NCBI RefSeq assembly: GCF_002117485.1
Contig: NZ_CP021030.1
Span: forward strand, 3,289,001-3,353,000
Direction: 5' to 3'
Source of the DNA: Rhizobium sp. NXC14
Lineage (GTDB): Bacteria > Pseudomonadota > Alphaproteobacteria > Rhizobiales > Rhizobiaceae
DNA: 64,000 nucleotides
In this document: positions 26,791 through 48,588 of the stretch, in pieces
Position numbering within the stretch: position 1 is the first letter of the stretch
Layout: each line of letters begins with the position of its first letter
Program-made: the position numbers and the translations under genes
Notes under the pieces: model-generated
What the model was told of the DNA's origin: nothing
Databases searched by the model: none
What the model saw: the letters and a program-made list of their open reading frames with translations, nothing else

Positions 26791-27432
26791 TCAGGTGGTG
26801 AGCGCGATGAGCGCATCACGATCCAGAAGGCGAACGACACGCTGCAGCTTGCCTTTCAGGCAAAGGACGCCTTTTTCGCGGAGTTTCGTGAAGCAGCGGG
26901 CAACCGTCTCGACTGTCAGCCCGAGATAGTCGGCGACATCGCTGCGCGACATCATCATGTCGAATTCCAGATCTTTCGGATGACGGTCGGCCATTTCACA
27001 AACGAAAGCCGCGACCCGCTTCAGCGCACTTTGCTCAGTGATGACGAGCTGCTTGTGCTGCGCCTTTGCGAGGTTCGTCAGCGCGATGTGAAGAAGATCG
27101 ACAGGAACGACTGCGTTCTGATTGGTTCGAAAGGGCTTGATGGAGGTCTCGCAGACGGCTTCCGCGAAGTCGGTTCGAACATTCGTTTCAAGGCCGAACC
27201 ATTCGCCCTCGCCGCAAAATGCTAGGATATATCGCTGTCCACTGGCCATCAGGCGATAAATTCGCACCGCACCGGTTTCGACCTGATAGATCGCAAGTGC
27301 ATGTTCGCCTTCGCTGTAGATTGTCTCGTTGGCCTTGAGCTTGATCGACTGATCTTTGGTTGTTCCGACAGCTGTTCCGTGTCGACTGGCCGGAATTGCC
27401 GTTTGCCTTATGGTCGCGTGGTGTTGAAGCAT
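26791..27432 (-). CDS. FixK-like Crp/Fnr-family regulator
   Basis: A 213-residue regulator with a cyclic-nucleotide-type beta-roll (about 35-130) and a C-terminal winged helix 'MSRSDVADYLGLTVETVARC'. The N-terminal cysteine cluster of FNR is absent, so it should not sense oxygen by an Fe-S cluster; this is the FixK pattern. The recognition helix reads E-T-V-A-R, where FNR has E-T-I-S-R, which still suits a TTGAT-type site. Four such sites lie within 9 kb. It follows the FixL/FixJ-like pair on the same strand. Upstream, at about 27500-27516, 'CTTAAGTA' weakly recalls a FixJ target; I give that little weight. Confidence 0.88.
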   Translation of the reverse strand: MLQHHATIRQTAIPASRHGTAVGTTKDQSIKLKANETIYSEGEHALAIYQVETGAVRIYRLMASGQRYILAFCGEGEWFGLETNVRTDFAEAVCETSIKPFRTNQNAVVPVDLLHIALTNLAKAQHKQLVITEQSALKRVAAFVCEMADRHPKDLEFDMMMSRSDVADYLGLTVETVARCFTKLREKGVLCLKGKLQRVVRLLDRDALIALTT

Positions 27433-27556
27433 ATGCGTTGCCCCCCAAATCCGCTTGGCAACATAACCAATCGCCGCCTGCCCCGATATTCGAGAAACCC
27501 CTTAAGTATCGCTACGGAAGCCTGGTCACCGACAGCTCTCTGCCGCGGCGCCTGGC

Positions 27557-28216
27557 CTATCGGGCAGGCGCCCAAGCACCGTGGCCGGAAAGGGCCTTGG
27601 CGTTTTCGATAGGCTGCGCTACCGCAATGGCCATTCGCATGAGTTCCGCCAGATTACGGGCGCCCATTTTCGCCATCACATTGGCGCGGTGGACTTCGAC
27701 GGTGCGTGCACTGATACCAAGCTGATACGCGATCATCTTGTTCTGCAAGCCGTCAAGAACGCCGGCCAGAACCTGGTGTTCGCGTTCCGTGAGCTGGCGA
27801 AGCCGTGCTGCAACGCTCTCAGAATCTGCGATGATCCCACCCGAGCGCTTCTGTCCTACCGCCGCGTTGATCGCCGCTATCAGCGCCTCTTCTCTGAGGG
27901 GTTTTTCAAGGAAATCCGATGCGCCGGCCTTCATTGCCCGGACGGCGGCGGCGATGTCGCCCTGAGCGGTAATGACAATGACCGGAACGTTCAGTCTCAA
28001 ACGGCGCAGGCGCTGGAGCAGCTCGATGCCATCAATTTCGGGCATGCGCAGGTCCGTCACGAGGCAGCTTCGTCTCGAAAGCGGCAACAGTTCCAGAAAG
28101 GCTTTGGCAGAACTATGCGTCCGAACGGCGAAACCTGCCGATACCAACAGAAACGTCAAAGATCGCCTGAGCGACTCCTCGTCATCGACGAGATGGATCG
28201 TAAGGTCGTTTGCCAT
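27557..28216 (-). CDS. FixJ-like response regulator
   Basis: A 219-residue two-component regulator: receiver domain (about 5-120) with phospho-acceptor Asp55 in 'CLVTDLRMPE', the acidic pair DDE at 11-13 and Lys in 'DFLEKPL', then a LuxR/FixJ-type helix-turn-helix 'LTEREHQVLAGVLDGLQNKM' with 'ISARTVEVHRANVMAKMGAR'. It probably activates target promoters when phosphorylated by the kinase encoded just before it. ATG 28216 lies inside the kinase gene (35-bp overlap) and has GGAGA upstream; the frame continues to 28267 but that part does not resemble a receiver. Confidence 0.9.
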   Translation of the reverse strand: MANDLTIHLVDDEESLRRSLTFLLVSAGFAVRTHSSAKAFLELLPLSRRSCLVTDLRMPEIDGIELLQRLRRLRLNVPVIVITAQGDIAAAVRAMKAGASDFLEKPLREEALIAAINAAVGQKRSGGIIADSESVAARLRQLTEREHQVLAGVLDGLQNKMIAYQLGISARTVEVHRANVMAKMGARNLAELMRMAIAVAQPIENAKALSGHGAWAPAR

Positions 28217-29429
28217 TGGTTGTTGTCTCCAGCAGCGGAAGGGAAAACGAAAGGATGGAACCGCCATCCCTTTGATTTTGCGCGCTTATACGGCCGCCAT
28301 GCGCCTCGATGATGCGCTTGGACAGTGCCAGACCCATGCCGAGGCCGCGCGGTTTGCTGGTTACGAAGGGATGAAACAGCGCCTCTTCGATATCGGCCGC
28401 AATTCCGCAGCCGTTGTCGGACACGTCGACAATGAGACGGGATAAATCGTCGGTTCTGGTTCGGATGGTGATATGCGGCCGCGCAATACCGTCGGTAGCC
28501 TCCACGGCGTTGCGAACAAGGTTCGTCAGCACCTGCACGATCTGGACACGGTCGGCAAGCACGACGTCCCGCTCCGCTTCGAGCCGAAAATCGGCGCAAA
28601 GGCCGTTTCGCTGTGATCCGGCAAGCGCGAAAGCCGTCGCCTCATGGATGAGCGCGTGCATCGCCTCAATCTTTCTCTCTTCGGCGCCGCGCTTCGCGAA
28701 TTCCGCGATGTTCTGTACGATCTTTCCCGCCCACAGGGCGTGCTGCGTAATCTCGGACAAGGCCTCACGGAGTTCTTCGCCGTGGCTACGACGATCCTTC
28801 CTCACAAGCAGCTCGCAACCTTGCGCGTATGCCGCGATCGATGTCAGCGGCTGGGCAAGTTCGTGAGCCAGCGTCGATGTCATCTCCCCGAGCGCAACTA
28901 TTCTGGCGATACGGGCAAGCTCACGCTGAAGCTCCTGAACACGCTGCAAAGTCTCGCGCTCGGTGCGGAAGTCCTCGAAGATCACCGCAGAGAAGTGTCC
29001 TTTGCCACCCTGCTCTCTGATGATCGTCAGGACGCTTGGAAATTGAACGCCGCTTCTGGTCATCGCCATACCGGCCCGCACCACTCCGCGGTCCGCCCAA
29101 CGTCCCTTCAACGGTACATCCGGCGTCGGATACCAGACAAGGTCGATCCTCTGACCCAGCAATTCGTCTTCCTCATAACCGAACAACGCCACAGCAGCCC
29201 TGTTGCAGGCCGAAATTCGGTGGCAATCGGTGACGAAGAATACCGCGTCAGGCAGCTGTTGATAGAATTGCCGGATCCAGTCCGTCGACGGTCCGTCATC
29301 CTCCTCGCGCAAAGCGCCTGGCCCGTCGCGGCGCGTCATGCGAGATTCTATGAACGAGGTCCTTCCCGCGACGTCCGGTTCAGTGCTATCGCATTCGTCA
29401 ACATGCGGCGCCTCCATCTTGATAGTCAC
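28182..29429 (-). CDS. FixL-like sensor histidine kinase without haem-pocket histidine
   Basis: A 415-residue kinase with one PAS domain (about 55-155), a coiled coil, an H-box with phospho-His 189 in 'TLAHELAQPL', and a HATPase domain ('LVRNAVEATDG', 'DVSDNGCGIA', 'GLGMGLALSK'). From the PAS to the end it follows FixL closely ('RVQELQRELARIARIVALGE'). However, the PAS segment between 'PTPD' and 'SGVQFP' is about ten residues shorter than in FixL and has no histidine, whereas FixL places the haem ligand there. It is therefore unlikely to be a haem oxygen sensor. The GTG start at 29429 has GGAGG 8 nt upstream; ATG 29417 is an alternative. No transmembrane segment is seen. Confidence 0.88.
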   Translation of the reverse strand: MTIKMEAPHVDECDSTEPDVAGRTSFIESRMTRRDGPGALREEDDGPSTDWIRQFYQQLPDAVFFVTDCHRISACNRAAVALFGYEEDELLGQRIDLVWYPTPDVPLKGRWADRGVVRAGMAMTRSGVQFPSVLTIIREQGGKGHFSAVIFEDFRTERETLQRVQELQRELARIARIVALGEMTSTLAHELAQPLTSIAAYAQGCELLVRKDRRSHGEELREALSEITQHALWAGKIVQNIAEFAKRGAEERKIEAMHALIHEATAFALAGSQRNGLCADFRLEAERDVVLADRVQIVQVLTNLVRNAVEATDGIARPHITIRTRTDDLSRLIVDVSDNGCGIAADIEEALFHPFVTSKPRGLGMGLALSKRIIEAHGGRISAQNQRDGGSILSFSLPLLETTTNGKRPYDPSRR

Positions 29430-29611
29430 GATGGTTTCCTCCGCCCTTTGACCCGGTCAGCCCCTTGACGGGCTTTTTGCCTCTCACAAGACTTGAGATT
29501 ACCACTTTTGGAAAAAGGGTCGGTGTAGTATCGCGTAGCCTCTATGGGTATCTCCGTGCAAATGACCGGTCGAAAGGCCTGACCTGCCTCGGTTTTGATC
29601 GGCTGCTTGCA

Positions 29612-29625
29612 TTGATCCGGCTCAA
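29612..29625 (+). promoter_or_regulatory. FixK/FNR-type box upstream of small gene 29835
   Basis: TTGAT-CCGG-CTCAA, part of a longer palindrome GCATTGA-N6-TCAATGC. A -10-like TACTCT (29648-29653) stands at the same distance as at the other three sites. It lies in the 405-bp gap between the FixL-like gene (minus) and gene 29835 (plus); nothing else was found in that gap except an open frame from 29705 that I do not trust. Confidence 0.6.
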
Positions 29626-29834
29626 TGCCGCGGCCTCATTCTTCCGCTACTCTTATAGGCGATTGGTACACGGCCACCAATGAGCAGGAAGATCGGAAGG
29701 GCGGGATGATGATGTTGTTACGCCGCCGCCCGCAAAACGCCAGCTGGAAAAGCTGTTCCGGACGAGCAACCGGGTTGCCTAAGAATAGCACCGTATCCGA
29801 TCGACGCTCGTGCATCATCGGGGAGGGATCGGTG

Positions 29835-30041
29835 ATGTGGCGGTTGGTGGTCGAAGCGCCCTTCGACGAGGATATCGAGCTCGCCGTCATAGACGGCGAT
29901 GGTATCCATGCCCTGGTTTTTCCCTGCCAGCGCTTCACAAGCGGATGGGCCAATGCCCTGACGGGCGAGATCCTGGACGTTCATCCCACCCATTGGCGCC
30001 CATGGCAGATACCGCGAAATGATCTGTCCGATCTTCACTGA
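29835..30041 (+). CDS. Small conserved-looking protein, unknown function
   Basis: A 68-residue soluble protein, 'MWRLVVEAPFDEDIELAVID' then 'HALVFPCQRFTSGWANALTG' and 'DVHPTHWRPW'. I recall short rhizobial proteins with this 'W.L..EAPFD.D.ELAVID..G.HALVFPC' pattern, but know no function. ATG 29835 has GGAGG 8 nt upstream. The frame is open back to 29705 ('MMMLLRRRPQ'), giving a longer but compositionally different alternative. A FixK-type site lies about 210 bp upstream. Confidence 0.6.
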   Translation: MWRLVVEAPFDEDIELAVIDGDGIHALVFPCQRFTSGWANALTGEILDVHPTHWRPWQIPRNDLSDLH

Positions 30042-30089
30042 GCGCTTCCAGGTGCTGGGCGGCGCCGGGCTCAAATGCTGCACCGCACC

Positions 30090-30103
30090 TTGTCTGCAAT
30101 CAA
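30090..30103 (+). promoter_or_regulatory. FixK/FNR-type box of the arcABC promoter
   Basis: TTGTC-TGCA-ATCAA, with one half perfect and the other one base off the TTGAC/T consensus. A -10-like TATTCT at 30127-30132 puts the box centre at about -42 from the expected transcription start, the place used by FNR/FixK activators. The arcA start follows at 30193. Confidence 0.65.
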
Positions 30104-30192
30104 TGACATGAGTGGACCGGCCAAAATATTCTGATGCGGTTCAAAGAGCCGGCCGCGCGGCCGCTATCCCCTATGGCTGGAAGGAGGACTAC

Positions 30193-31422
30193 ATGCGTGG
30201 TTTCGGTGTTCATTCTGAGGTCGGAAAGCTGAGAACAGTCATGGTCTGTCGACCATCCCTGGCTCATCAGCGCCTGACGCCTGCAAACTGCCATGATCTT
30301 CTTTTTGACGATGTTCTCTGGGTCCATGAGGCGCAGAAGGACCACTACGATTTCGTCTTGAAGATGCAGGAAAGAGGTGTCGAGGTTCTCGAGCTCCACG
30401 ATCTGCTTGGTCAGACGCTCTCAAACAAGCAGGCGCGCGATTTCATTCTCGATCGGCGGATAACCCCGAACGTGCTTGGCTCGCAGGTTGCCGAGGCGAT
30501 GCGGCCATGGCTCGACGAAATGCCGGCCACACAGCTTGCCGCATTCATGATCGGCGGCATCGCAATCTCCGACCTCCCCGATGTCAAGGCCAAGGCATTG
30601 ATGCTCAGCGCCTTGCCGGAAAGCGATTTCGTCATCCCACCAATCCCCAACACGCTGTTCCAACGCGACCCCTCCTGCTGGATTTACAACGGTGTGACCT
30701 GCAATCCAATGTTTTGGCCCGCGCGGCGTGCCGAGACATTGGTTCAGCGTGCCATCTACAAATTTCATCCAATCTTCCAGGGCGGCGGTTTCCAGATCTG
30801 GTGGGGTGATGCCGACCATCAATTCGCCAACGCCTCGATGGAAGGCGGCGACGTCATGCCGATCGGCAACGGCACGGTGCTGATCGGCATGGGCGAGCGC
30901 ACCACCTATCAGGCCGTCGGCCAGGTGGCTCAGGCCCTTTTCAGAAGCAAGGCGGCGAAACGGGTGATCGGCTGCCTGATGCCGAAGAGCCGCGCGGCAA
31001 TGCATCTCGATACGGTTTTCAGCTTCTGCGACCGCGACGTCGTTACGCTGTTTGCCGAGGTGGTCGACCAGATCCGCTGCTACAGCATGCATCCCAAGGA
31101 CGACGACGGCACATTCGAGATCCATCCCGAAAATACGCCGATGCTCGATGTCGTCGCCGGAGCGCTCGACCTGTCGAAGCTACGAACCGTCGAGACCGGC
31201 GGCAATTCCTATCAGGCCGAACGCGAACAATGGGACGACGGCAACAATGTCGTTGCACTCGAACCCGGCGTTGTCGTCGCCTACGACCGAAACACCTACA
31301 CGAATACGCTGCTGCGCAAGGCGGGTGTCGAGGTCATCACCATTCGCGGCTCCGAACTCGGACGTGGCCGTGGTGGCGGGCACTGCATGACGTGCCCAAT
31401 CTGGCGCGACCCCGCTTACTGA
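30193..31422 (+). CDS. arcA: Arginine deiminase
   Basis: A 409-residue cytoplasmic enzyme that hydrolyses L-arginine to citrulline and ammonia, first step of the ADI pathway. Family marks: '[20 protein letters not shown]', '[20 protein letters not shown]', '[20 protein letters not shown]', '[15 protein letters not shown]', and the nucleophile Cys398 in 'GGGHCMTCP'. Length is normal. ATG 30193 has AAGGAGG just upstream; the frame extends to 30112 without a site. It is the first gene of arcA-arcB-arcC. The released ammonia also raises pH, so the pathway gives both ATP and acid tolerance. Confidence 0.95.
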
Positions 31423-31457
31423 CCTTCCATCCACGAACCAGACGACGGAGCAAGACC

Positions 31458-32462
31458 ATGAGTTTCAATCTGCGCAATCGATCGCTTCTGACCGTGCAGG
31501 ACTATACGCCGCGGGAATTCCGCTATCTCCTCGATCTCGCCCGCGATCTGAAGCGGGCCAAATACGCCCGCACCGAGCAGGAGCATCTGAAGGGCAAGGA
31601 AATCTGCCTGATCTTCGAGAAAACCTCGACAAGAACGAGATGCGCCTTCGAAGTCGCCTGCTCGGACCAGGGCGCCAACGTGACCTATCTCGATCCGTCC
31701 GGCTCACAGATCGGCCACAAGGAATCCTTTGAGGACACGGCGCGGGTGCTGGGGCGCATGTATGATGCGATCGAATATCGCGGCTCCGCCCAGAAGGGAG
31801 TGGAGACGCTGGCAAAATACGCCGGCGTCCCGGTCTATAATGGCCTGACCGATGAGTATCATCCGACGCAGATGATCGCAGACGTCATGACCATGCGCGA
31901 GCACAGCGACAAGCCGATCGCTGAGATCAAATATGCCTATGTCGGCGACACCCGCTCGAATATGGGGCATTCCCTGCTAATCGTGGGCTGCCTACTCGGC
32001 ATGGATGTGCGCATCTGCGGCCCGAGATCGCTGTGGCCTTCGGAAGAATACATGAAGATCGCCAGGGATTTGCAGCAGGCCTCGGGCGCGCGGCTCCTGG
32101 TTACCGAAGATCCGAGAGAGGCGGTCAAGGACGTTGATTTCATCCACACCGACGTCTGGGTCTCGATGGGCGAGCCGAAGGACGTCTGGCGCGAACGCAT
32201 CAAGCTGCTCACCCCTTACCAAGTCAATCAGGACCTGATGAAGGCGACCGGCAATCCGCAGACCAAGTTCATGCATTGCCTGCCGGCATTCCACGACACC
32301 GAGACAACGCTCGGCAAGCAGATTGCCGAAGATTACGGCATGGAGAACGGGCTCGAGGTGACCAACGACGTCTTCGAATCCGAAGCCAACGTCGCCTTCG
32401 AACAGGCAGAAAACCGCCTGCACACGATCAAGGCCCTACTCGTTGCAACCTTGGGAGATTAG
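31458..32462 (+). CDS. arcB: Catabolic ornithine carbamoyltransferase
   Basis: A 334-residue transferase. In this operon it should run in the phosphorolytic direction, splitting citrulline into ornithine and carbamoyl phosphate. Motifs: carbamoyl-phosphate loop STRTR (57-61), '[20 protein letters not shown]' and the ornithine-site '[20 protein letters not shown]'. It aligns better with long catabolic ArcB proteins than with shorter anabolic ArgF. ATG 31458 has ACGGAG 7 nt upstream. The spacing of 35 bp after arcA and 1 bp before arcC marks one operon. Confidence 0.95.
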
Positions 32463-32463
32463 C

Positions 32464-33402
32464 ATGCGTGTGGTCATTGCGCTTGGCGGCAACGCGCTTC
32501 TCCGGCGCGGGGAAGCGATGACCGCCGATACCCAGAGGCGGAACGCGCGCATCGCCGCTGAGGCGATCGCGCCCCTGGCGGCCGAACACGAGATCGTCGT
32601 AACCCACGGCAACGGGCCGCAGGTCGGGCTGCTCGCGCTCCAGGGGGCGGCCTACAAACCAGAAGAGGCCTATCCGCTCGATGTTCTCGGCGCCGAGACC
32701 GAGGGCATGATCGGCTATATGCTGGAGCAGGAGCTGGGCAATCTCCTGCCGTTCGAGCAGCCCTTGGCAACGCTTCTCACCATGGTTGAAGTCGACGCCG
32801 AGGATCCCGGTTTCCAGAACCCTACCAAATTCGTCGGGCCGGTCTACGACAAGGGCGAGGCGGATCGGATCCGCACGGAGAAGGGTTGGGTGTTCAAGCA
32901 GGATGGCGAAAAATGGCGACGTGTCGTCGCCTCGCCGGCGCCGAAGCGCATCTTCGAGATCCGGCCCGTGCGCTGGCTTCTGGAGCAGCGCACCATCGTC
33001 ATCTGTGCCGGCGGCGGCGGAATTCCAACGATGTACGAAAAGGGCGCCGATCGAAAACTGATCGGCGTCGAGGCCGTGATCGACAAGGATCTGTGCTCGG
33101 AACTGCTGGCGCGAGAACTCCAGGCCGATCTTTTGATCATGGCGACGGATGCCGAGGCTGTGTGCATCGATTGGGGCAAGCCGTCACAGAAGGCGATCCA
33201 CCGCGCTCGTCCTGACGATCTCGCCCAGTTCTCCTTCCCGGCCGGCTCTATGGGCCCGAAGGTCGATGCTGCCTGCCATTTTGCCCGGGCAAACGGCAAG
33301 ACGGCCGCAATCGGCTCTCTTGCCGAAATCGCCGGGATGGTGCGCGGCGACCGCGGGACGATCATCAACGAGCGTTTTGACACCCTGAGCTGGCATGCCT
33401 GA
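32464..33402 (+). CDS. arcC: Carbamate kinase
   Basis: A 312-residue kinase that uses carbamoyl phosphate to make ATP from ADP, the energy-yielding last step of the ADI pathway. Family marks are '[17 protein letters not shown]', '[15 protein letters not shown]', '[16 protein letters not shown]', '[20 protein letters not shown]' and '[17 protein letters not shown]'. ATG 32464 follows the arcB stop by one base, with GGGAG upstream. It ends 12 bp from the convergent APC transporter gene. Confidence 0.95.
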
Positions 33403-33414
33403 GGGCCCGGTCGA

Positions 33415-34782
33415 TCAGGCAAACTTATCCTGAGACGGCAGCGGTTGCGTTACGGCGCTCGCTGCCGTCTCCTTGTCTGTCGCGCCAGCCGCATTGCGTC
33501 TTTGCCAGACATAGACGGGGATGCCGAGCATCAGCAGCACGAGGCCGTAGAGCACCGGTTCGGCGCCGGAGCCGTAAAGGGTGAAGATCGCAAAGAGGAA
33601 CGCGATGAGTTCGATCACGCTCACTCGCGGCATTCGCCCATCAGTCATGCCCGCGACAAGGCTTCCGGCAAGCGCGCAGAAAGCATAGGGAACGACGGCG
33701 GCCATGGTGCTGAGCCCGACCATCAGCCGATAGACGGCGGCAAAGCCTTCGGAACCGAGCGCCTGGACGAGCACGAGGAGCGTTGCGAACGAGGCCGAGA
33801 TGATCATGCCCCACGCCGGCACGCCTCGTGGGGAGAGCCGGGCAAACAGCGGCGGAAACAGTCCGTCGCGGGCGGCAGCCATCGGAACCTGCCCCATCAG
33901 CAGGGTCCAGCCGTTGAGCGCGCCGATCGAGGAGACCAGAACTGCAAGCGAGATCGCCAACTCGCCGGTGCGTCCCCACATGATCCCCGCCGCCTGGGAA
34001 AATGGCGCGACAGACTGAGCGAGCTGTTCTCGCGGTACGAGGCCCATCACCACGATCGTGCCGAGCACATAGAGGGCAGCGGCGATGGAAATGCCGAGCA
34101 CGGTGGATCGCGGGATTGTCCGCTCCGCGTTCTCCACGTCGCCGGCTGGAACGGTCGCCGATTCCAGCCCCAGATAAGCAAACATGGTGAGGGGCGCCAG
34201 TGTCGCAAAGGACTGCAGTAGCGGCTGACCGCTCGGATTGAATTCGGCGAAATGCGACGTATCGATGTAGAGAAGGCCGATAATGGCAACGGCGCCGAAC
34301 GGCAGCAGCTTGGCGTAAGTCGTGACCTGCGCGAAGACACCCGCCGCGTGAACGCCGCGAAGATTGACCAGCACGATCGCCCAGATCACACCGAGCGTCA
34401 ACACGGTCGCGGCGAAGCGGTTGGCGAGAGCAGGGAAGAGATCGACCATCACGCCGGCAAAGGCAATCGCGATGACGGGCAGAGATGTCCATATCGAGAT
34501 CCAGTAACCCCAGGCGATCAGAAAGCCGGCGAAATCGCCATAGGCGAGTCTGGTATAGGCGTAGGGGCCGCCGACAGCGGGCACGAGGCTCGCCAGACGC
34601 GCGAAGGTCAGACCCAGGCAAATCGCGCCGGCGCCCATGATGATCCAGACGACAATCGCAAGGTTGCCATAGGGCGCAACCGCGGCCGGTGAAAGATAAA
34701 AGCCCGATCCCACCATATTGCCGACGACAATGGCGGTGCAGGCAGCAAGTCCGAGGCTCTTGCCATTTGGCGAGGTTGTCAT
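33415..34782 (-). CDS. APC-family amino acid antiporter (AdiC/ArcD-like role)
   Basis: A 455-residue membrane protein with about 12 helices. The start of helix 1, 'VVGNMVGSGFYLSPAAVAPY', is the substrate-binding unwound segment of basic amino acid/polyamine antiporters such as AdiC, CadB and PotE. Beside arcABC it most likely exchanges arginine for ornithine (or agmatine); no other arcD-like gene is present. It faces the arc operon and so has its own promoter. Start ATG 34782 ('MTTSPNGKSLG') fits the family; the frame upstream is not membrane-like. Substrate is inferred. Confidence 0.85.
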   Translation of the reverse strand: MTTSPNGKSLGLAACTAIVVGNMVGSGFYLSPAAVAPYGNLAIVVWIIMGAGAICLGLTFARLASLVPAVGGPYAYTRLAYGDFAGFLIAWGYWISIWTSLPVIAIAFAGVMVDLFPALANRFAATVLTLGVIWAIVLVNLRGVHAAGVFAQVTTYAKLLPFGAVAIIGLLYIDTSHFAEFNPSGQPLLQSFATLAPLTMFAYLGLESATVPAGDVENAERTIPRSTVLGISIAAALYVLGTIVVMGLVPREQLAQSVAPFSQAAGIMWGRTGELAISLAVLVSSIGALNGWTLLMGQVPMAAARDGLFPPLFARLSPRGVPAWGMIISASFATLLVLVQALGSEGFAAVYRLMVGLSTMAAVVPYAFCALAGSLVAGMTDGRMPRVSVIELIAFLFAIFTLYGSGAEPVLYGLVLLMLGIPVYVWQRRNAAGATDKETAASAVTQPLPSQDKFA

Positions 34783-34983
34783 GGTTCCCTCCGAGAGATG
34801 CCCTTTCCGGTGCCGATGTCGCCTCGGACATCGGCTCTCGGTGACAATCTTCCACTCAAAGGATGGGCGCCGCAATCCGGTTCAATGCGTAGTGGGGCGA
34901 CCGCCTGAACAGTTGCGTTGACGTCAGGCGTCGCGCTTTCGGAAAATCTGGTTGCTGTCCGTAGCCCAGTTGTTGGAGGATCA

Positions 34984-34997
34984 TTGATCCTACTCAA
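34984..34997 (+). promoter_or_regulatory. FixK/FNR-type box upstream of gene 35065
   Basis: TTGAT-CCTA-CTCAA inside CATTGA-N6-TCAATG. A -10-like TATCTT (35020-35025) gives a box centre of about -41.5. The same gap (34783-35064) also has an imperfect inverted repeat GCGACCGCCTGA/TCAGGCGTCGC at about 34897-34934. Confidence 0.62.
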
Positions 34998-35064
34998 TGC
35001 CGAGCTCCTGCGCATGAGCTATCTTCCGCAACCGAACATCAATCAGTCCTCGGGAGTTAGAGTG

Positions 35065-35424
35065 ATGAAGATGGCCATGATAATTGGACTTGCCGTAGTA
35101 ACTGCCGCCGCTGGGATTGCGCCGGTCGAGGCTCAACAGACTCGACGTGAATATCGGAGGATGAACTGGAGCGAGAACCTGCCTGACGCGGTGCGAGCTT
35201 ACCACGACAGGCGATTCACGATCGTCAGTTATCGAGTTGCAGATTTTTCAGAGACCGGCTCACATCCTACACCGGGAAGCGAAGAGCATGTCAAAGCCAT
35301 AAGAGACGCGATTCGCTCGAACAAATGGCTCGTAGCGCAGCTCAAGACGAAGAAACTCACTGCGAACGACATCGAATGGGTTTCGCGGGCCCGCAATGGC
35401 AACATGACTTTCTACACAAAATGA
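35065..35424 (+). CDS. Small exported protein, unknown function
   Basis: A 119-residue protein with a signal peptide (residues 1-23, 'MKMAMIIGLAVVTAAAGIAP', cut after 'VEAQ'). The mature part is basic and soluble ('RREYRRMNWSENLPDAVRAY', 'VKAIRDAIRSNKWLVAQLKT', ending 'GNMTFYTK'). I do not recognise a family. GGGAG lies 8 nt before ATG 35065. The FixK-type site upstream suggests it belongs to the same anaerobic or acid response as the arc and decarboxylase genes. Confidence 0.75.
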   Translation: MKMAMIIGLAVVTAAAGIAPVEAQQTRREYRRMNWSENLPDAVRAYHDRRFTIVSYRVADFSETGSHPTPGSEEHVKAIRDAIRSNKWLVAQLKTKKLTANDIEWVSRARNGNMTFYTK

Positions 35425-35528
35425 CCGGTCTCCGCCAGGCTAACTTCAGGCTGCAGCAGGCCACACGGCCTCCTTGTCGACCCCACCGTTTCAAACCGCG
35501 CCTCAGCGACCAGCGTAAGTACTAGCGC

Positions 35529-35562
35529 TCGGCTCGAAAATCGCTTCCGGTTTTCGGGCCGA
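35529..35562. repeat. Hairpin / possible dispersed repeat before the cation efflux gene
   Basis: TCGGCTCGAAAA pairs with TTTTCGGGCCGA (one wobble) around a 10-nt loop. I recall similar 'CTCGAAAATCG..TTCCGGTTTTCGGGCCGA' segments between rhizobial genes. It may end transcription of gene 35065. The last base is part of ATG 35562, which speaks against that ATG as the next gene's start. Confidence 0.5.
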
Positions 35563-35606
35563 TGCTTAGATTGAGTATTGGGGCTGCGGATGTCGAGGCG
35601 GGGCAA

Positions 35607-36533
35607 GTGTTAAGCGAGCAAGGGTTTCTCCGGACATCGATTGCAGCGACCGTCGTGGTCGCCACGCTTGGCGTCGTCTTCGGCATTTTTTCCGGCTCCT
35701 TCTCGATCGCCTTCGACGGCGTTTATTCGCTGGCTGATGCGGCGATGACCGGACTGGCGCTCTGGGTTTCCAGCCTGATCCTGAAGTCGACGCAGAGCGA
35801 CGCTCGATCCGGCAGAATCCGGAACCGCTTCACCATGGGATTCTGGCATCTCGAGCCCATCGTGCTGATGCTCAACGGCTGCCTGTTGATGACGGTTGGC
35901 ATCTATGCGCTGATCAGCGCGATCATCAGCATCTTAAACGGCGGTCACGAACTGCGCTTCGGCGTGGCGATCGCCTATTCTGCGGCGACCCTGCTCGTTT
36001 GCGCCGCCATGGCCTTCCTCGGCGTCAGAGTGAATGCCCACACCAAATCCGATTTCATCTCGCTCGACATCAAGGCCTGGATCATGTCGGGCGGCATTGC
36101 GCTTGCCCTGCTCATTGCATTCCTAATTGGCATGGCCGTGCAGGCGACCCCGGCTGCCTGGCTTGCTAGCTATATGGACCCGGCGGTTCTGGCGCTGGTT
36201 TGCCTCATCATGATTCCGCTTCCGATTGGCGTCGTTTGGAGGTCGTTGACGGAGATCCTGCTGATCGCCCCTGTCGACCTCCAGGAGCACGTCGATCGTG
36301 TCGCCTCGGAAACGGTCCGCCGCCTCGGCTTCCTCTACCACCGCTCCTATGTTGCCCGGGTCGGCCGCGCGATGCAGATCGAACTTTATTTCATCGTCCC
36401 TCAAGGGCTTCCTGCAAAGACCGTGGAGGAGTGGGACGCGCTCCGCGACGAGATAGGGAACGCGATCGGCGACGAAAGCGCCAATCGCTGGCTGACGATC
36501 GCCTTCACCGCCGATGCGGAGTGGGCCGAATAG
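35607..36533 (+). CDS. Cation diffusion facilitator family transporter
   Basis: A 308-residue inner-membrane protein with six hydrophobic helices in about 210 residues and a soluble C-terminal domain, as in CDF metal/proton antiporters. The conserved metal-site helix is 'FDGVYSLADAAMTGLALWVS' (two Asp), matched later by 'SDFISLDIKAWIMSGGIALA' with Asp. Substrates of the family are Zn2+, Fe2+, Mn2+ and similar ions; which one is not clear. I chose GTG 35607, with GAGG 8 nt upstream, over ATG 35562, because the latter lies in a hairpin repeat. It ends 162 bp before the decarboxylase operon. Confidence 0.8.
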   Translation: MLSEQGFLRTSIAATVVVATLGVVFGIFSGSFSIAFDGVYSLADAAMTGLALWVSSLILKSTQSDARSGRIRNRFTMGFWHLEPIVLMLNGCLLMTVGIYALISAIISILNGGHELRFGVAIAYSAATLLVCAAMAFLGVRVNAHTKSDFISLDIKAWIMSGGIALALLIAFLIGMAVQATPAAWLASYMDPAVLALVCLIMIPLPIGVVWRSLTEILLIAPVDLQEHVDRVASETVRRLGFLYHRSYVARVGRAMQIELYFIVPQGLPAKTVEEWDALRDEIGNAIGDESANRWLTIAFTADAEWAE

Positions 36534-36584
36534 CCTAATCAAAATCCAAGTTCCCCCGACGACGTCGAAATGCTTCGGGTCACC

Positions 36585-36598
36585 TTGATTGCAATCAA
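36585..36598 (+). promoter_or_regulatory. Perfect FixK/FNR box of the decarboxylase operon
   Basis: TTGATTGCAATCAA, a perfect anaerobox inside the 18-bp palindrome CCTTGATTGCAATCAAGG (36583-36600). A -10-like TACGAT at 36621-36626 places the box centre at about -41.5, the class II activator position. The next start is ATG 36696. Confidence 0.82.
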
Positions 36599-36695
36599 GG
36601 ACGCTGCACGACCCGTCATGTACGATCCTCCAACCTGAGATGCACGCGGGCTGCATGGCGGCCGCAGCCTTTGACGTCCGGTTCTGGAGGAACGC

Positions 36696-38957
36696 ATGGA
36701 ATTCCAGATGGCATTTCCGATAGCCGTTATCGACGAGGATTTTGACGGCAAGAGCGCTGCCGGACGCGGTATGCGCGACCTCGCTGCCGCCATCGAAAGG
36801 GAAGGGTTCCGGATCGTTTCCGGCGTTTCCTATGAAGATGCCCGCCGTCTCGTCCATGTCTTCAACACAGAGTCCTGCTGGCTGGTCTCCGTCGACGGCA
36901 CCGAAGACAAGACAACGCGCTGGCAGGTGCTGGGAGAGGTGCTCGCCGCGAAGCGGCAGAGGAACGACCGCCTGCCGATCTTCCTCTTCGGCGACGACAC
37001 GACGGCGGAAGACGTGCCGACGCCGGTATTGCGCCATGCCAATGCCTTCTTTCGGCTGTTCGAGGATTCGGCCGAATTCATGGCGCGCGCCATCGCGCAG
37101 GCTGCCCGCAACTATCTCGACCGGCTACCGCCGCCGATGTTCAAGGCGTTGATGGATTATACGCTGGAAGGCGCTTATTCATGGCATACGCCCGGCCATG
37201 GCGGCGGCATTGCGTTTCGCAAGAGTCCGGTGGGCCAGCTCTTCTACACGTTCTTCGGCGAAAATACGCTGCGATCGGATATTTCCGTATCGGTCGGCAG
37301 CATCGGTTCGCTTCTCGATCATGTCGGGCCAATCGCCGAGGGCGAGCGCAATGCCGCGCGCATCTTCGGCACCGATAAAACCCTCTTCGTCGTCGGCGGC
37401 ACGTCGACTGCCAACAAGATCATCTGGCACGGCATGGTCGGGCGCGGCGATCTCGTCCTGTGCGACCGTAACTGTCACAAATCAATCCTGCATTCCCTCA
37501 TCATGACGGGCGCCACGCCAATTTATCTGACGCCGTCGCGCAACGGGCTCGGCATCATCGGTCCGATTTCCAAGGATCAGTTCACGCCTGAAGCCATCGC
37601 CGGCAAGATCGCCGCCAGCCCTTTTGCCGGACAGACCAGCGGCAAAGTCCGGCTGATGGTCATCACCAACTCGACCTATGATGGCCTCTGCTACAATGTC
37701 GATGCGATCAAGGCGTCGCTCGGCGACGCGGTGGAGGTGCTGCATTTCGACGAAGCCTGGTACGCCTATGGCAACTTCCACGAATTCTACGACGGTTTCC
37801 ACGGGATATCGTCAAACCAGCCGGCACGGTCGAAGAACGCCATCACCTTTGCCACGCACTCGACGCACAAGCTGCTGGCCGCCCTTTCCCAGGCATCGAT
37901 GATCCATATCCAGCATGCCGAGACCAAGCGTCTCGACATCACCCGCTTCAACGAAGCCTTCATGATGCATACCTCGACCTCGCCGCAATATGGCATCATC
38001 GCCTCCTGCGATGTCGCGGCCGCCATGATGGAACAGCCAGCCGGCCGCGCCCTGGTGCAGGAGACGATCGATGAGGCGATCAGCTTCCGCCGGGCGATGA
38101 ACGCGGTGAGGAAACAGACGGAAGGCACCTGGTGGTTTGACGTCTGGGAGCCGACGGCTGCCGGACAGACGCCGAGCGATACCCGTGCCGATTGGGTCCT
38201 GAAGCCGGATGATGCCTGGCATGGTTTTGCCGGCCTTGCCGAAAACCATGTCATGGTCGACCCGATCAAGGTCACAATCCTGTCGCCGGGCCTGTCGGCG
38301 AGCGGAGTGATGGATGAGCACGGCATACCGGCTGCCGTTATCACCAAGTTCCTGTCGTCGCGGCGCATTGAGATCGAGAAAACCGGTCTCTATTCCTTCC
38401 TCGTGCTTTTCTCGATGGGTATTACCCGCGGCAAATGGAGCACGCTGATCACTGAGCTCCTCAATTTCAAGGATCTCTATGATGCCAACGCGCCGTTGAC
38501 GCGAGCGCTGCCCGCGCTCGCCGCCGCGCATCAGGAAGCCTATGCCGGCATGGGGTTGAAGGATCTCTGCGCGCAGATCCATGCGATCTACCGCAAAGAT
38601 GACGTCCCGAAGGCGCAGCGCGAGATGTACACTGTCCTGCCCGAAATGGCATTGCGTCCGGCGGACGCCTATGACCGGCTGGTCAAAGGCAGGATCGAGA
38701 GCGTCGAGATTAACAATCTCATGAACCGCATCCTCGCCGTGATGATCGTTCCCTATCCGCCGGGAATTCCGCTGATCATGCCCGGCGAGAGGATCACCCA
38801 ATCGACGAAATCGATTCAGGATTACCTGCTCTACGCCCGCGATTTCGATCGCAAGTTCCCCGGTTTCGAAACCGATATCCATGGTCTTCGCTTCGCTCCC
38901 GGCGACGGCGGACGCCGCTATCTCGTCGATTGCATTGCAGAGGAGGCGCCAGAATGA
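36696..38957 (+). CDS. AdiA-like arginine/lysine decarboxylase
   Basis: A 753-residue PLP enzyme of the acid-inducible Orn/Lys/Arg decarboxylase family. Residues 1-140 form the receiver-like wing domain, and the PLP lysine is Lys392 in 'ATHSTHKLLAALSQASMIH'. 'VITNSTYDGLCYN', 'LHFDEAWYAYGNF' and 'FSMGITRGKWSTLI' follow E. coli AdiA closely, so arginine to agmatine is the best guess, with lysine possible. The reaction uses a cytoplasmic proton and raises pH. ATG 36696 follows GGAGG; a perfect FixK box lies 100 bp upstream. Its stop overlaps the next gene by four bases (ATGA). Confidence 0.88.
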   Translation: MEFQMAFPIAVIDEDFDGKSAAGRGMRDLAAAIEREGFRIVSGVSYEDARRLVHVFNTESCWLVSVDGTEDKTTRWQVLGEVLAAKRQRNDRLPIFLFGDDTTAEDVPTPVLRHANAFFRLFEDSAEFMARAIAQAARNYLDRLPPPMFKALMDYTLEGAYSWHTPGHGGGIAFRKSPVGQLFYTFFGENTLRSDISVSVGSIGSLLDHVGPIAEGERNAARIFGTDKTLFVVGGTSTANKIIWHGMVGRGDLVLCDRNCHKSILHSLIMTGATPIYLTPSRNGLGIIGPISKDQFTPEAIAGKIAASPFAGQTSGKVRLMVITNSTYDGLCYNVDAIKASLGDAVEVLHFDEAWYAYGNFHEFYDGFHGISSNQPARSKNAITFATHSTHKLLAALSQASMIHIQHAETKRLDITRFNEAFMMHTSTSPQYGIIASCDVAAAMMEQPAGRALVQETIDEAISFRRAMNAVRKQTEGTWWFDVWEPTAAGQTPSDTRADWVLKPDDAWHGFAGLAENHVMVDPIKVTILSPGLSASGVMDEHGIPAAVITKFLSSRRIEIEKTGLYSFLVLFSMGITRGKWSTLITELLNFKDLYDANAPLTRALPALAAAHQEAYAGMGLKDLCAQIHAIYRKDDVPKAQREMYTVLPEMALRPADAYDRLVKGRIESVEINNLMNRILAVMIVPYPPGIPLIMPGERITQSTKSIQDYLLYARDFDRKFPGFETDIHGLRFAPGDGGRRYLVDCIAEEAPE

Positions 38958-41317
38958 TCCCGCGCGATGTGAAGTCTCCAACGGTCGCCATACCGTTCCA
39001 CAAGCTGCTGAAAATCGTCGCCGTCGTCGACCGCGACAATCCCCAGGCGCAGGAGCTCGTGGCGCAGATCACCGCCCAGGGCTTCGAGGTGGAAGTGCGG
39101 GGCGACTATTCAGCCGATGTATCCGAGGATGCCGACGTCGGCGCTTATATCGGCTCGGTCGAGGACGGGCGGCTGCTCTCGGCACGCAGCTTCCTTCGCT
39201 GCGTCAGGGAGATCGGTTTTCGCACGCCGATCTGGGCGATGGCCGATACGCTGACCATCGCGGATATGGATGTCGTGGAAATGGCTGGCGAAGTGGATGG
39301 GTTCGTCTATCTCGGTCAGCAGACACCAGTCTTCTATGCCAAGCAGATCGTGTCCAGCGCCATCAACTACGGCAAATCGCTGCTCCCGCCATTCTTCGGC
39401 GGCATGATGGCCTATGATGGGGAAGCCAATATCGCCTTCGATTGCCCAGGGCACCAGGGCGGCCAGTTCTATCGAAAGTCACCGGCCGGCCAGCTCTTCT
39501 TCAAATATTTCGGCGAAAGCATTTTCCGCAACGACCTCTGCAATGCAGATGTGGACCTCGGCGATCTGCTCATCCATGAAGGGCCAGCCGTCGAAGCTCA
39601 GAAAGCGGCCGCGCGCGTCTTCGGCGCCGACCGCACCTATTTCATCCTGAACGGTACGAGCACCTCCAACAAGGTGGTGGCGAACGCAGTGTTGCGTAGC
39701 GGCGATCTCGTGCTCTTCGATCGCAACAATCACAAGTCGCTGCACCAGGGCGCCCTCGTACAGGCCGGGGCGATCCCGATTTTTCTGCCGACCGCCCGCA
39801 ATTCCTTCGGCATGATCGGCGCTGTCGACTGGGCAGCCTGGGACGAAGCCTGGCTACGGCAAAAGATCGAGGAACACCCGCTCGTCACGGACAAGAGCCG
39901 TGCGCAGGCGGAGAGGCCATTCCGTCTGGCCTGCATCCAGCTCGCGACCTATGACGGCACGATCTACAATGTCGCCCAAGTGATGGAGAAGCTCGGCCAT
40001 CTCTGCGACTACGTCCTCTGGGACGAGGCCTGGATCGGCTACAACGCCTTCCACCCGCTCTTCGAGGGGCACAGCCCGATGCGTCTCAAGGATCTCAGGG
40101 CTGACATGCCCGGGCTGTTCTCCACGCAATCGGTGCACAAGCAGGGCGCCGGCTTCTCGCAGGCATCGCAGATCCACAAACGCGACGAACATATCAGCGG
40201 CCAGCGCCGCTTCGTCGAACATAAGCGCTTCAATGAATCGCTGCTGATGCATGTGTCGACGTCTCCCTTCTACCCGCTGTTCGCCTCGCTCGATGTCAAT
40301 GCCAAGGTGCATGAGGGCAAGGCTGGCGAGATGCTCTGGGACCGCTGCATCGAACTCGGGATCGAGGTTCGCAAGAAGCTGCGCGGTTTCGTGGAGCATT
40401 ACGAAACCAAGGCCGCGCACCCGGAAGAGCAGTGGTTCTTCGATCCTTTCGTGCCGGACAGGGTGACGGTTTCGCGCTCGAAGCACACCGGCGATCTTGC
40501 CGCCGCCAAGTGGGAAGATGTCCCGACGGAGGTGCTGAAACGCGAGCAGCAATGCTGGCGGTTCGATCCAGAGGCGAGCTGGCACGGTTATTCAGGTTAC
40601 GCGCCCGGCTACACCATGGTCGACCCCAACAAGCTTGCAATACTGACACCCGGCATCGACCGGAAGACCGGCGAATATCGCGAGTTCGGCATTCCGGCGA
40701 CCGTCGTCGCCAACTATCTGCGCGAGCAGCGGGTCGTGGCGGAAAAATGCGACTTGAACAGCCTGCTCTTTTTGCTGACGCCGGCTGAAGACGAGAGCAA
40801 GCTGAACACGCTGGTCGCCAAGCTCGTCAAGTTCAAAAACCTGTGGGATCGCGACGCACCCTTGCCAGAAGTGCTGCCGACCGTCTTTGCGGCCAATCGC
40901 GAGCGTTATGCCGGCTACAGCGTCCGCCAGGTCTGCAGGGAGATGCATTCCTTCTATCGCGACGCGGGTGTCAAGGAGCTGCAGCGCCTGTGCTTCCGCT
41001 CCGAAAGCTTCCCGGAACCGGCAATCGCACCCAAACAGGCCTATGAGGCACTCGTCGCCAACAATGTCGACTATGTGCCGCTGACGGAAGCCGCCGGCCG
41101 CATCTCGGCAACCTTGGCGCTGATCTATCCGCCCGGTATCGGCGTGATCGTGCCTGGAGAACGCTGGGACGAGAGGGCGCGGCCGATGCGGGACTATTTC
41201 CTCGCCTTCGAAGAATCCTTCAACCGCTTCCCCGGCTTCAATTACGAGGTCCAAGGCGTGTTCCAGGAGCGGATCGATGGGCGGATCAAGTTCCACACAT
41301 ATGTCGTGCGCGAGTAG
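38954..41317 (+). CDS. SpeF-like ornithine decarboxylase
   Basis: A 787-residue PLP decarboxylase with wing domain (1-145), PLP lysine Lys396 in 'TQSVHKQGAGFSQASQIHKR', and the SpeF-like blocks 'LATYDGTIYNVAQVMEKLGH' and 'REFGIPATVVANYLREQRVV'. It should turn ornithine, the end product of the ADI pathway, into putrescine with uptake of a proton. It is about 55-65 residues longer than E. coli SpeF, with extra length around 'VEHYETKAAHPEEQWFFDPF'. ATG 38954 has AGGAGG 7 nt upstream and overlaps the adiA-like stop. A potE-like antiporter gene follows, as in E. coli speF-potE. Confidence 0.9.
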   Translation: MIPRDVKSPTVAIPFHKLLKIVAVVDRDNPQAQELVAQITAQGFEVEVRGDYSADVSEDADVGAYIGSVEDGRLLSARSFLRCVREIGFRTPIWAMADTLTIADMDVVEMAGEVDGFVYLGQQTPVFYAKQIVSSAINYGKSLLPPFFGGMMAYDGEANIAFDCPGHQGGQFYRKSPAGQLFFKYFGESIFRNDLCNADVDLGDLLIHEGPAVEAQKAAARVFGADRTYFILNGTSTSNKVVANAVLRSGDLVLFDRNNHKSLHQGALVQAGAIPIFLPTARNSFGMIGAVDWAAWDEAWLRQKIEEHPLVTDKSRAQAERPFRLACIQLATYDGTIYNVAQVMEKLGHLCDYVLWDEAWIGYNAFHPLFEGHSPMRLKDLRADMPGLFSTQSVHKQGAGFSQASQIHKRDEHISGQRRFVEHKRFNESLLMHVSTSPFYPLFASLDVNAKVHEGKAGEMLWDRCIELGIEVRKKLRGFVEHYETKAAHPEEQWFFDPFVPDRVTVSRSKHTGDLAAAKWEDVPTEVLKREQQCWRFDPEASWHGYSGYAPGYTMVDPNKLAILTPGIDRKTGEYREFGIPATVVANYLREQRVVAEKCDLNSLLFLLTPAEDESKLNTLVAKLVKFKNLWDRDAPLPEVLPTVFAANRERYAGYSVRQVCREMHSFYRDAGVKELQRLCFRSESFPEPAIAPKQAYEALVANNVDYVPLTEAAGRISATLALIYPPGIGVIVPGERWDERARPMRDYFLAFEESFNRFPGFNYEVQGVFQERIDGRIKFHTYVVRE

Positions 41318-41441: not shown

Positions 41442-42800
41442 ATGACCGACAACACGATGCATCTTGCGGCCGAGGCCACAACCAAGAAAAAGATGAACCT
41501 GGTGCAGCTCACCTTTATCGTCGCCGTCAACATGATGGGGTCGGGGATCATTATGCTGCCTGCCAATATGGCGCAGGTCGGGGCGATCTCGCTGCTCTCC
41601 TGGCTCGTGACCGCCATCGGCTCGATGGCGATCGCCTATGGCTTCGCCCAGGCCGGGCTGTTCAACCAGCGCCCCGGTGGCATGTCCGCCTATGCGGAGG
41701 ATGCCTATGGGAAGGACGGCTACTTCATGGTGTTCTTCCTGTATTTCCTGTCGCTTGCCGTCGGCAATGTGGCGATCGGCATCTCGGCCGTCGGGTACTT
41801 TGCCGGTTTCTTTCCGGTGCTGACCTCGACGCCGATCATGACCTGCCTGGCGCTGATCGTGCTCTTGTGGCTGACCACGGCCGCCAATTTCGGTGGACCG
41901 CGCATTACCGGCCGCATCGGCTCGGTCACTGTCTGGGGCGTCATCCTTCCCGTCGGCCTGCTGTCGATCCTCGGCTGGCTCTGGTTCAGCTCCAGTACCT
42001 TCGCCGCCGCCTGGAACCCGCAAGGCTTGACACTTGGGCAGGGAATGGGATCGAGCATCTCGCTTACCCTCTGGGCTTTCCTCGGCATGGAGTCCGCGGC
42101 GCAGAATTCCGATGCCGTCGAAAATCCCAAGCGTGACGTACCGCTCGCCTGCATGTTCGGCACGCTGGGCGCCGCCGTCATCTACATCCTGTCGACGACG
42201 GTCATTCAAGGCATCGTGCCGAATGCGGATCTTGCTACCTCAACGGGACCTTTCGCACTCGCCTATGCCACCATGTTCAATTCCACCATTGGCTCCATCG
42301 TCATGGCGCTTGCCGTGCTGGCATGCCTGGGCTCGCTACTCGGATGGCAGTTTACGATCGCGCAGACGGCGAAAACCGCCGCCGATGAGAGAATGTTCCC
42401 ATCCATATTCTCGCGGGTGAACGAGATGGGGGCTCCCATGGCCGGCATGATCATTCTTGGCATCGTGCAGACATGCCTTGCCTTAATGACCATATCGCCG
42501 ACTTTGAGCGAACAGTTCTCAGCGCTCGTCAACCTCGCCGTCGTCACCAACGTACTGCCCTATATCATCGCGCTTTCGTCGCTGTTCGTCATGATGAAGG
42601 CTGCCCGCGTGCCACAGCCGAAATACCGGCTGAATGCGACCATCGCCCTGGTCGGGATGGCCTACAGCCTCTTCGCCATCTATGCCTCCGGAAAGGATGC
42701 GGTGCTCGGCGGCATGATCGTCACAGGCATCGGCTTCATCATCTACGGCTTGATCGCCCCGCGTTTCGCCAGCGGCACGAACCGGCTTCCGGCCGAGTAA
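41442..42800 (+). CDS. PotE-like putrescine/ornithine antiporter
   Basis: A 452-residue APC transporter with about 12 helices. It follows E. coli PotE almost block by block: 'VNMMGSGIIMLPANMAQVGA', 'LTLWAFLGMESAAQNSDAVE', 'GSLLGWQFTIAQ', 'ALMTISPTLSEQFSALVNLA'. It should export putrescine in exchange for ornithine, completing the proton-consuming cycle with the SpeF-like enzyme before it. ATG 41442 has GGGAGG upstream. In this window it can also draw on ornithine made by arcAB. Confidence 0.9.
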   Translation: MTDNTMHLAAEATTKKKMNLVQLTFIVAVNMMGSGIIMLPANMAQVGAISLLSWLVTAIGSMAIAYGFAQAGLFNQRPGGMSAYAEDAYGKDGYFMVFFLYFLSLAVGNVAIGISAVGYFAGFFPVLTSTPIMTCLALIVLLWLTTAANFGGPRITGRIGSVTVWGVILPVGLLSILGWLWFSSSTFAAAWNPQGLTLGQGMGSSISLTLWAFLGMESAAQNSDAVENPKRDVPLACMFGTLGAAVIYILSTTVIQGIVPNADLATSTGPFALAYATMFNSTIGSIVMALAVLACLGSLLGWQFTIAQTAKTAADERMFPSIFSRVNEMGAPMAGMIILGIVQTCLALMTISPTLSEQFSALVNLAVVTNVLPYIIALSSLFVMMKAARVPQPKYRLNATIALVGMAYSLFAIYASGKDAVLGGMIVTGIGFIIYGLIAPRFASGTNRLPAE

Positions 42801-45398: not shown

Positions 45399-45563
45399 TT
45401 CCTGCTCTGCTGCGCTATTGCAACGGCGTCGCCGGCGGCCGGACTTAGTTCTCAATCATTGCGCAAGACGCGCCCGGGAGTGCCGCTCAGTTACGTATTG
45501 CTACGGAAGTCCAGAGCCATCAGCGGGTGTATAAGGCAACAGGTAGCGTCGCGGGAGGGCTCG

Positions 45564-48307: not shown

Positions 48308-48588
48308 GATCGCCCCACGACAAGTCACGCAATTATCTAAGCCCGTTCTAATACATCATACCGCGCCTGCCCTTGGTTGCAAGTTTTGCTTTGGGATTCG
48401 CGCAGAACGCCACAAATTTGGGCGCGGACCGTTCTTGGCGCGGATGAGCGGCGCCGATTGTCCGGTACCGAACTAATCTGGCAATGTTGTCTTCCGGTCT
48501 GATACAGTCAATGTTACCTCGGGAACAATCCGGCACCTTTGTGACTTCGTACCAATTGCAGGACGCGGTACCAATGCGGAGCTAGTTC
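48308..48588. other. Divergent gap 48308-48588
   Basis: This 281-bp region separates the cyclase-like gene (minus) from a small gene (plus). No gene, strong hairpin or FixK-type site was found in it. Confidence 0.5.

Follow-up and report, generated by a model that had tools for sequence, protein, structure and literature searches.

Conserved FixK/FNR-type boxes and a linked FixK-like regulator set at an arginine deiminase and decarboxylase cluster of Rhizobium

Four spaced boxes among arginine and decarboxylase genes

We analysed a 64-kilobase (kb) stretch of Rhizobium sp. NXC14 (NZ_CP021030.1, positions 3,289,001-3,353,000; called the window below), in which four boxes of the FixK/FNR type lie among genes for arginine deiminase, small proteins and amino acid decarboxylases, beside genes for a FixK-like regulator, a FixJ-like regulator and a histidine kinase. 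The genome comprises 6.69 Mb in four contigs, of which the one carrying the window measures 4.49 Mb. The closest matches to the window in a comparison with a plasmid collection came from Rhizobium and Sinorhizobium. The boxes, the hexamers that follow them and the genes downstream of boxes 2 to 4 are as follows (offsets are counted from the box start, distances in nucleotides (nt) from the box centre).

29612..29625, + strand: box 1, TTGATCCGGCTCAA, 9/10 consensus positions
29648..29653, + strand: -10-like TACTCT of box 1, offset 36, 29.5 nt
30090..30103, + strand: box 2, upstream of arcA, TTGTCTGCAATCAA, 8/10 consensus positions
30127..30132, + strand: -10-like TATTCT of box 2, offset 37, 30.5 nt
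34984..34997, + strand: box 3, TTGATCCTACTCAA, 9/10 consensus positions
35020..35025, + strand: -10-like TATCTT of box 3, offset 36, 29.5 nt
36585..36598, + strand: box 4, TTGATTGCAATCAA, 10/10 consensus positions
36621..36626, + strand: -10-like TACGAT of box 4, offset 36, 29.5 nt
30193..31422, + strand: arcA, arginine deiminase (PF02274, 435 bits)
31458..32462, + strand: arcB, ornithine carbamoyltransferase (annotated R. lentis orthologue)
32464..33402, + strand: arcC, carbamate kinase (annotated R. lentis orthologue)
35065..35424, + strand: exported protein of 119 amino acids (aa), unnamed family (family search)
36696..38957, + strand: Orn/Lys/Arg decarboxylase family protein, no substrate assignable (profile matches)
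38954..41317, + strand: ornithine decarboxylase (NCBIfam PRK13578, 903 bits, cut-off 794)
41442..42800, + strand: putrescine-ornithine antiporter PotE (R. lentis orthologue)

A preliminary description of this DNA had reported the four boxes and hexamers, and our reading agrees with it in their sequences, coordinates, plus-strand orientation and centre-to-hexamer spacings. To the extent listed, all four boxes match the TTGAT-N4-ATCAA-type palindrome of FixK/FNR anaeroboxes. We then compared the window with Markov sequences, counting boxes with at least 8/10 consensus positions and TANNNT at offset 35-37 from the box start. Five places in the window qualified, four of them being boxes 1-4, while the Markov model gave a mean of 0.3 and a maximum of 1 in 60 sequences. 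For the 7-kb region that holds the boxes, 0.05 was expected against 4 observed, and none of 300 sequences reached four. Counted without the hexamer and with two mismatches allowed, the box was found 31 times in the window against 19.3 expected; because this is only a mild enrichment, the case rests on spacing and conservation. A further box at 46866 on the minus strand, with TATTAT, falls within the reading frame 46532-48328 and was taken as a chance match.

Genome-wide, the exact pattern TTGATNNNNATCAA occurred 13 times and its reversed form not at all; TTGATNNNNNTCAA gave 31 forward and 34 reverse matches against 1 and 0 for the reversed pattern, and TTGANNNNNNTCAA gave 77 against 15. Among 52 distinct genome sites (104 orientations), TANNNT peaked at offset 36 with six cases, every other offset having 0-3. 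These six cases are boxes 1, 3 and 4 together with three sites on another contig, C3.

The gene behind box 4 had been called adiA-like. It scored 708.7 against LdcC (cut-off 968) and 680.6 against arginine decarboxylase (cut-off 1167) and stayed under every NCBIfam cut-off for decarboxylases of arginine, lysine or ornithine; we dropped that label. Between arcC and box 3 lies a gene on the opposite strand:

33415..34782, - strand: basic amino acid/polyamine antiporter-like permease (NCBIfam, under the AdiC cut-off)

Conservation of the boxes and their spacing

The window was aligned with eight relatives, annotated or unannotated (loci L014-L018 and L020-L022). Box 1 was kept at the orthologous place in eight relatives (9 rows with the window), boxes 2 and 4 each in seven (8 rows) and box 3 in four (5 rows), with the hexamer present in most. 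Box 1 reads TTGATCCGGCGCAA in L018, L021 and L022. Box 3 goes together with the exported-protein gene behind it: both are present in the window, L015, L018, L021 and L022, and both are missing in L014, L016 and L017. In strains Ta9k, RCAM0610 and BG4 (L018, L022 and L016) the decarboxylase frames are broken, yet box 4 is intact.

Box 1 has a different history. In the preliminary description it was assigned to the small gene that now follows it:

29835..30041, + strand: conserved protein of 68 aa, function not assigned (relatives)

In Rhizobium lentis (L014), box 1 is followed by a gene for an exported protein, paralogous to that at 35065-35424, and only then by the 68-aa gene. When window positions 29590-29860 were aligned with L014 8886-9545, this paralogue proved to be gone from the window and both flanks to be kept. 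Box 1 precedes 29835 because the intervening gene was deleted in this genome, which rules out 29835 as its original gene. The alignment marks box 1 as the relic promoter of the deleted paralogue, and it may now serve the 68-aa gene. Copies of the exported-protein gene are distributed unevenly: the box 1 copy alone survives in L014, L016 and L017, the box 3 copy alone in the window and L015, and in L018 and L022 the box 3 copy is accompanied by a remnant of the other. The family counts 27 proteins, and all named hosts are Rhizobium. Its first member reached no Pfam family over the cut-off and other members gave weak matches only; an AlphaFold2 model (mean predicted local distance difference test score (pLDDT) 71, predicted template modelling score (pTM) 0.58) had no match in the PDB at E <= 0.001. 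The 68-aa protein matched no Pfam or NCBIfam family, and its 678 relatives are distributed far more widely than the arginine cluster.

We extended the comparison to 148 Rhizobium genomes, Rhizobium sp. NXC14 included. For arcA, 29 boxes were found by a pattern fixing T at position 4, and the remaining 15 arcA genomes were read without the pattern. Of these 44 boxes, 41 had TANNNT at offset 37, two had it at offset 36 and that of L142 had none, while the distance from box to ATG varied from 85 to 132. For the exported-protein gene, 55 family matches less the window's own, G146:C9:56003, G137 and G138 (broken or weak) left 51 upstream regions. Automatic choice of the best site gave a box in 47/51 and TANNNT at 35-37 in 45 (offset 36 in 42, 37 in two and 35 in one); by eye, 46 regions had box and hexamer. 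The box lies 78-119 bases upstream of the first aligned residue by eye, and the automatic choice adds one at 56. Both sets therefore carry the constant box-to-(-10) spacing of FixK/FNR anaerobox promoters, and a fixed box-to-hexamer distance, with the gene at varying distances, is as required of an activator that contacts RNA polymerase.

The boxes also differ between genes. The 48 distinct exported-gene box rows all have A at position 4, and 47 of them have C at position 10. The 43 distinct arcA rows have T (32) or C (11) at position 4 and never A, and their near half, ATCAA, shows no deviation in any row; the 15 arcA genomes read without the position-4 pattern likewise lack A at that position. 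Both halves are perfect in the ten decarboxylase boxes (9 distinct rows), which were drawn from perfect sites. Outside the genus, arcA-proximal boxes at four Sinorhizobium loci read TTGTC or TTGTT, and on this ground the off-consensus half of the arcA box predates the genus Rhizobium. Each of these four loci (L019, L023, L025 and L026) carries a near-perfect box in addition to the one with the TTGTC/TTGTT half, at a distance of about 90-220 nt. Two boxes were also seen in the R. leguminosarum/R. indigoferae arcA promoters (L018 8281-8330, L021 9281-9330 and L022 9281-9330), where box 2 is followed by a 5-nt deletion and, 36 nt downstream, by another box, TTGATTGTGTTCAA; the arrangement recalls the fnrN promoter with two boxes in PMC7888657.

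That the boxes are chance sequences or functionless relics appears the least credible explanation. Box 1 no longer has its own gene, and box 2 is retained in two genomes without arcA (G021 and G057), as this explanation would have it; against this, box and spacing are conserved genus-wide where the promoter's gene is intact. In those two genomes (loci L141, L147 and L233), G021 has an arcA relic, with its box 2 and its copy of the FixK-like gene 1.2 Mb apart, and no arcA relic was found in the 8 kb read of G057.

The local regulators and the protein likely to act at the boxes

Upstream of box 1, three genes on the minus strand form one group, with a conserved element before the first of them:

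26791..27432, - strand: FixK-like Crp/FNR regulator of 213 aa, here the local FixK (Pfam HTH_Crp_2, Crp, cNMP_binding)
27485..27521, - strand: conserved element GCTTCCGTAGCGATACTTAAGGGGTTTCTCGAATATC upstream of local fixK, 37 nt, core 27502-27517 (alignment)
27557..28267, - strand: FixJ-like response regulator (NCBIfam FixJ, 255.9 bits, cut-off 255)
28182..29429, - strand: cytosolic PAS histidine kinase related to FixL (FixL relatives)

A FixK-like regulator with a compatible recognition helix had been proposed at 26791-27432. The assignment is upheld by the Pfam matches and by the closest solved relative, FixK2 (1.2e-25); the protein has the Crp/FNR fold and, like FixK, lacks the N-terminal cysteine cluster. 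Its score against the NCBIfam FixK model (Caulobacter) is 134.5 bits, under the cut-off of 300. The helix proved only partly canonical: it reads ETVAR in 29/29 parsed Rhizobium loci (31 were entered; L127 and L234 were left out), whereas the E..SR form of FixK, as ETVSR, is found in a second FixK encoded on C3 and in three Sinorhizobium proteins. The alanine in this helix does not account for the TTGT half-site at arcA, since Sinorhizobium combines ETVSR with TTGTC/TTGTT.

The FixJ-like protein has FixJ as its closest solved relative (5.2e-51) and narrowly passes the NCBIfam cut-off; its relatives begin 17 codons further on (MANDL). The closest solved relatives of the kinase are FixL chimeras, and it scores 253 bits against the NCBIfam FixL cut-off of 850. 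Where the kinase aligns with the part of FixL that holds the heme ligand, the proximal histidine, its sequence is shortened, and no histidine occurs there in any of the seven kinases read.

The 18-nt core of the element upstream of local fixK was found with at most three mismatches in 28 of the 29 parsed loci. The sole miss, L120 (Rhizobium sp. Pop5), probably reflects a wrong choice of start codon, because L020 shows the element before that same gene. It is absent from the three Sinorhizobium loci. The element begins about 64 bases upstream of the start predicted by the position of a TTATGT/TTATGC hexamer, and the FixJ sites in PMC4999443 are similarly placed. Elsewhere in the window there is a second exact copy of the core, possibly a further target of the same regulator:

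45491..45506, - strand: second copy of the fixK-element core, upstream of the membrane protein gene at 45564

Beside local fixK lie the repeats 25802-26160/44303-44661 (96%) and 26157-26305/46193-46353 (89%), whose partners, 18-20 kb away, fall in the cation exchanger region and the region of the 45564 gene; they look like remnants of duplication or rearrangement. In L015, L017, L018 and L020 a gene of 960-966 bp is divergent from fixK.

Presence of local FixK was defined by a match at E <= 1e-50, a threshold chosen for the present analysis, with G113 (7.6e-50) added. At E <= 1e-50 it was found in 54/148 genomes. The window's arcA type occurs in 42 genomes (41 at >=88% identity plus a 94% fragment in G010), and all 42 have local FixK, G113 counted, as against 13 of the 106 others. 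A second arcA type, at 54-58% identity, occurs in further genomes. The pattern TTGTCTGNRATCAATGA was found once each in 29 genomes, every one with local FixK, and its reversed form in none of the 148. Exported-gene regions with box and hexamer (46/51) number 45 of 46 where local FixK is present and 1 of 5 where it is not (Fisher 9.8e-5, a guide only since the genomes are related).

Based on these results, we propose that boxes 2-4 are FixK-type operators, that local FixK is their likeliest activator and that the kinase/FixJ-like pair drives it, with a probability of roughly two in three. From the spacing we infer that a FixK/FNR-family dimer would bind about 41.5 bases before the start (about 42.5 at arcA) and aid RNA polymerase at the TANNNT -10 hexamer. 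Box 2 would control arcABC, box 3 the small exported protein, and box 4 an operon of the Orn/Lys/Arg decarboxylase, ornithine decarboxylase and PotE genes; the kinase/FixJ-like pair would probably switch on local fixK through the conserved upstream element. The arcABC products would turn arginine into ornithine, adenosine triphosphate (ATP) and ammonia, and ornithine would become putrescine with antiport, a route that could help cells short of oxygen. Low oxygen as the signal fits the box type.

Several observations weigh against this proposal. The genome encodes the second FixK with a canonical helix on C3, and the local helix has alanine in place of serine. The co-occurrence is partly due to linkage and common descent; G069 has local FixK and the exported gene without a box, and G073 has the box without local FixK. 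In R. leguminosarum Ta9k and similar strains, the arcA box is followed by the 5-nt deletion and by no TANNNT. Finally, the likeness of the fixK element to the known FixJ site TAAGTAATTTCCCTTA was matched by 1574 and 1296 of 20000 shuffles (6-8%); the element, a candidate FixJ site, is not recognisable as one from this resemblance.

The C3 protein is the main competitor. It is 37% identical to local FixK, and a protein search of the genome for FixK returned only these two and a weak third. Anaerobox-type sites cluster at C3:75602-110050, in and adjoining the cbb3-oxidase/fixK region, whose R. lentis counterpart carries ccoNOQP, ccoG, hemN and a PAS protein (cbb3-oxidase and fixG-type genes). 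The preliminary description had spoken of a local regulon; the boxes do lie near local FixK, but sites of equal box and spacing also occur on C3, whose FixK could act here. It is thus conceivable that this general FixK mainly reads the boxes, the cluster belonging to a general low-oxygen regulon and local FixK having another job or none. The canonical ETVSR helix, the cbb3-oxidase/fixG-type neighbourhood with its equally spaced sites, and the FixK control of arcABC reported in Sinorhizobium meliloti (PMC3164228) favour such a role. It is opposed by the presence of local FixK in every genome with this arcA type and by the way the exported-gene boxes track local FixK, and we consider it rather unlikely. 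The local regulator is the likelier activator of the two; on the sequence evidence its role is likely but unproven.

A different Crp/FNR protein, not FixK-like, is a very improbable candidate. In its favour, the genome has at least 32 HTH_Crp_2 matches (150 of 231 first-look candidates scored); against it, among the 15 stronger of the 32, which were read, the E..(A/S)R helix occurs only in the local and C3 proteins.

A more far-reaching form of the proposal can be put forward tentatively, with somewhat less than even confidence. A self-contained signal chain, distinct from the general FixK system, may travel with the cluster, consisting of a non-heme FixL-like kinase, a FixJ-like regulator that uses the CCGTAGCRATACKTAAGG element as its site, and the ETVAR FixK, with gene-specific half-sites setting promoter strength or discriminating between the two FixKs. 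Being non-heme, the kinase would sense a signal other than heme-bound oxygen. The half-sites in question are CTCAA on the near side at the exported gene and TTGT/TTGC on the far side at arcA. Discrimination between two FixKs by half-site is opposed by the Sinorhizobium arcA boxes, which read TTGTC/TTGTT though the regulators there are ETVSR.

Relation to known systems

FixK control of arcABC is already reported: according to PMC3164228 (citing Bobik 2006), the S. meliloti FixK regulon includes arcABC. The two systems share this target and the anaerobox type. They differ in that S. meliloti fixK is under FixLJ with a heme FixL, whereas the Rhizobium cluster contains a FixK-like gene of its own together with a kinase/FixJ-like pair; regulators of the S. 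meliloti type also read ETVSR and lack the fixK element, while the local Rhizobium FixK combines ETVAR with the element. PMC5596199 describes a 37-kb region of S. meliloti pSymA (SMa0631-SMa0697) in which SMa0662 and arc are co-regulated and an Fnr-like motif is enriched. As in the window, a putative Fnr/Crp regulator and an arc operon thus share one region, there a co-expressed one; according to that paper, SMa0662 has no known regulatory role.

The grouping of kinase, FixJ-like and FixK-like genes matches the FixLJ-FixK cascade of Bradyrhizobium and Sinorhizobium. It departs from it in a sensor that lacks the heme-histidine stretch and scores far under the FixL cut-off, and in the local fixK element as only a candidate FixJ site. 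Anaeroboxes are likewise shared with the hFixL-FxkR-FixK and FnrN systems of R. leguminosarum 3841, where they lie 32-34 bases from the start by the paper's own counting (PMC7888657). FxkR of that strain is no homologue of FixJ and acts at the K-box GTTACA-N4-GTTACA (PMC7888657), and no K-box was seen in the aligned local fixK upstream sequences. Arginine genes were not found in the available part of the text of PMC7888657.

In Pseudomonas, the FNR-family protein Anr activates the arginine deiminase arc genes at low oxygen and is itself the oxygen sensor. The proposed local system resembles it in having an FNR-family activator of arc genes and differs in that Anr senses oxygen directly.

The mechanism, FixK-type activation, is of a known kind and the arrangement is new. 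New are the local kinase/FixJ-like/FixK-like set with a sensor lacking the heme-histidine segment, the conserved element before fixK and the gene-specific off-consensus half-sites. The open-licence literature searched gave no paper that deals with this FixK-like gene of Rhizobium. A FixJ-like/FixK-like set in this genus is of note given that PMC4999443 describes both R. etli and R. leguminosarum as being without FixJ. In S. meliloti, arcABC and the arginine/agmatine antiporter gene adiC are reported to be essential for symbiosis (PMC7268258). With a probable dedicated regulator set and three conserved putative target promoters at hand, the control of arginine use in nodule bacteria becomes a testable question.

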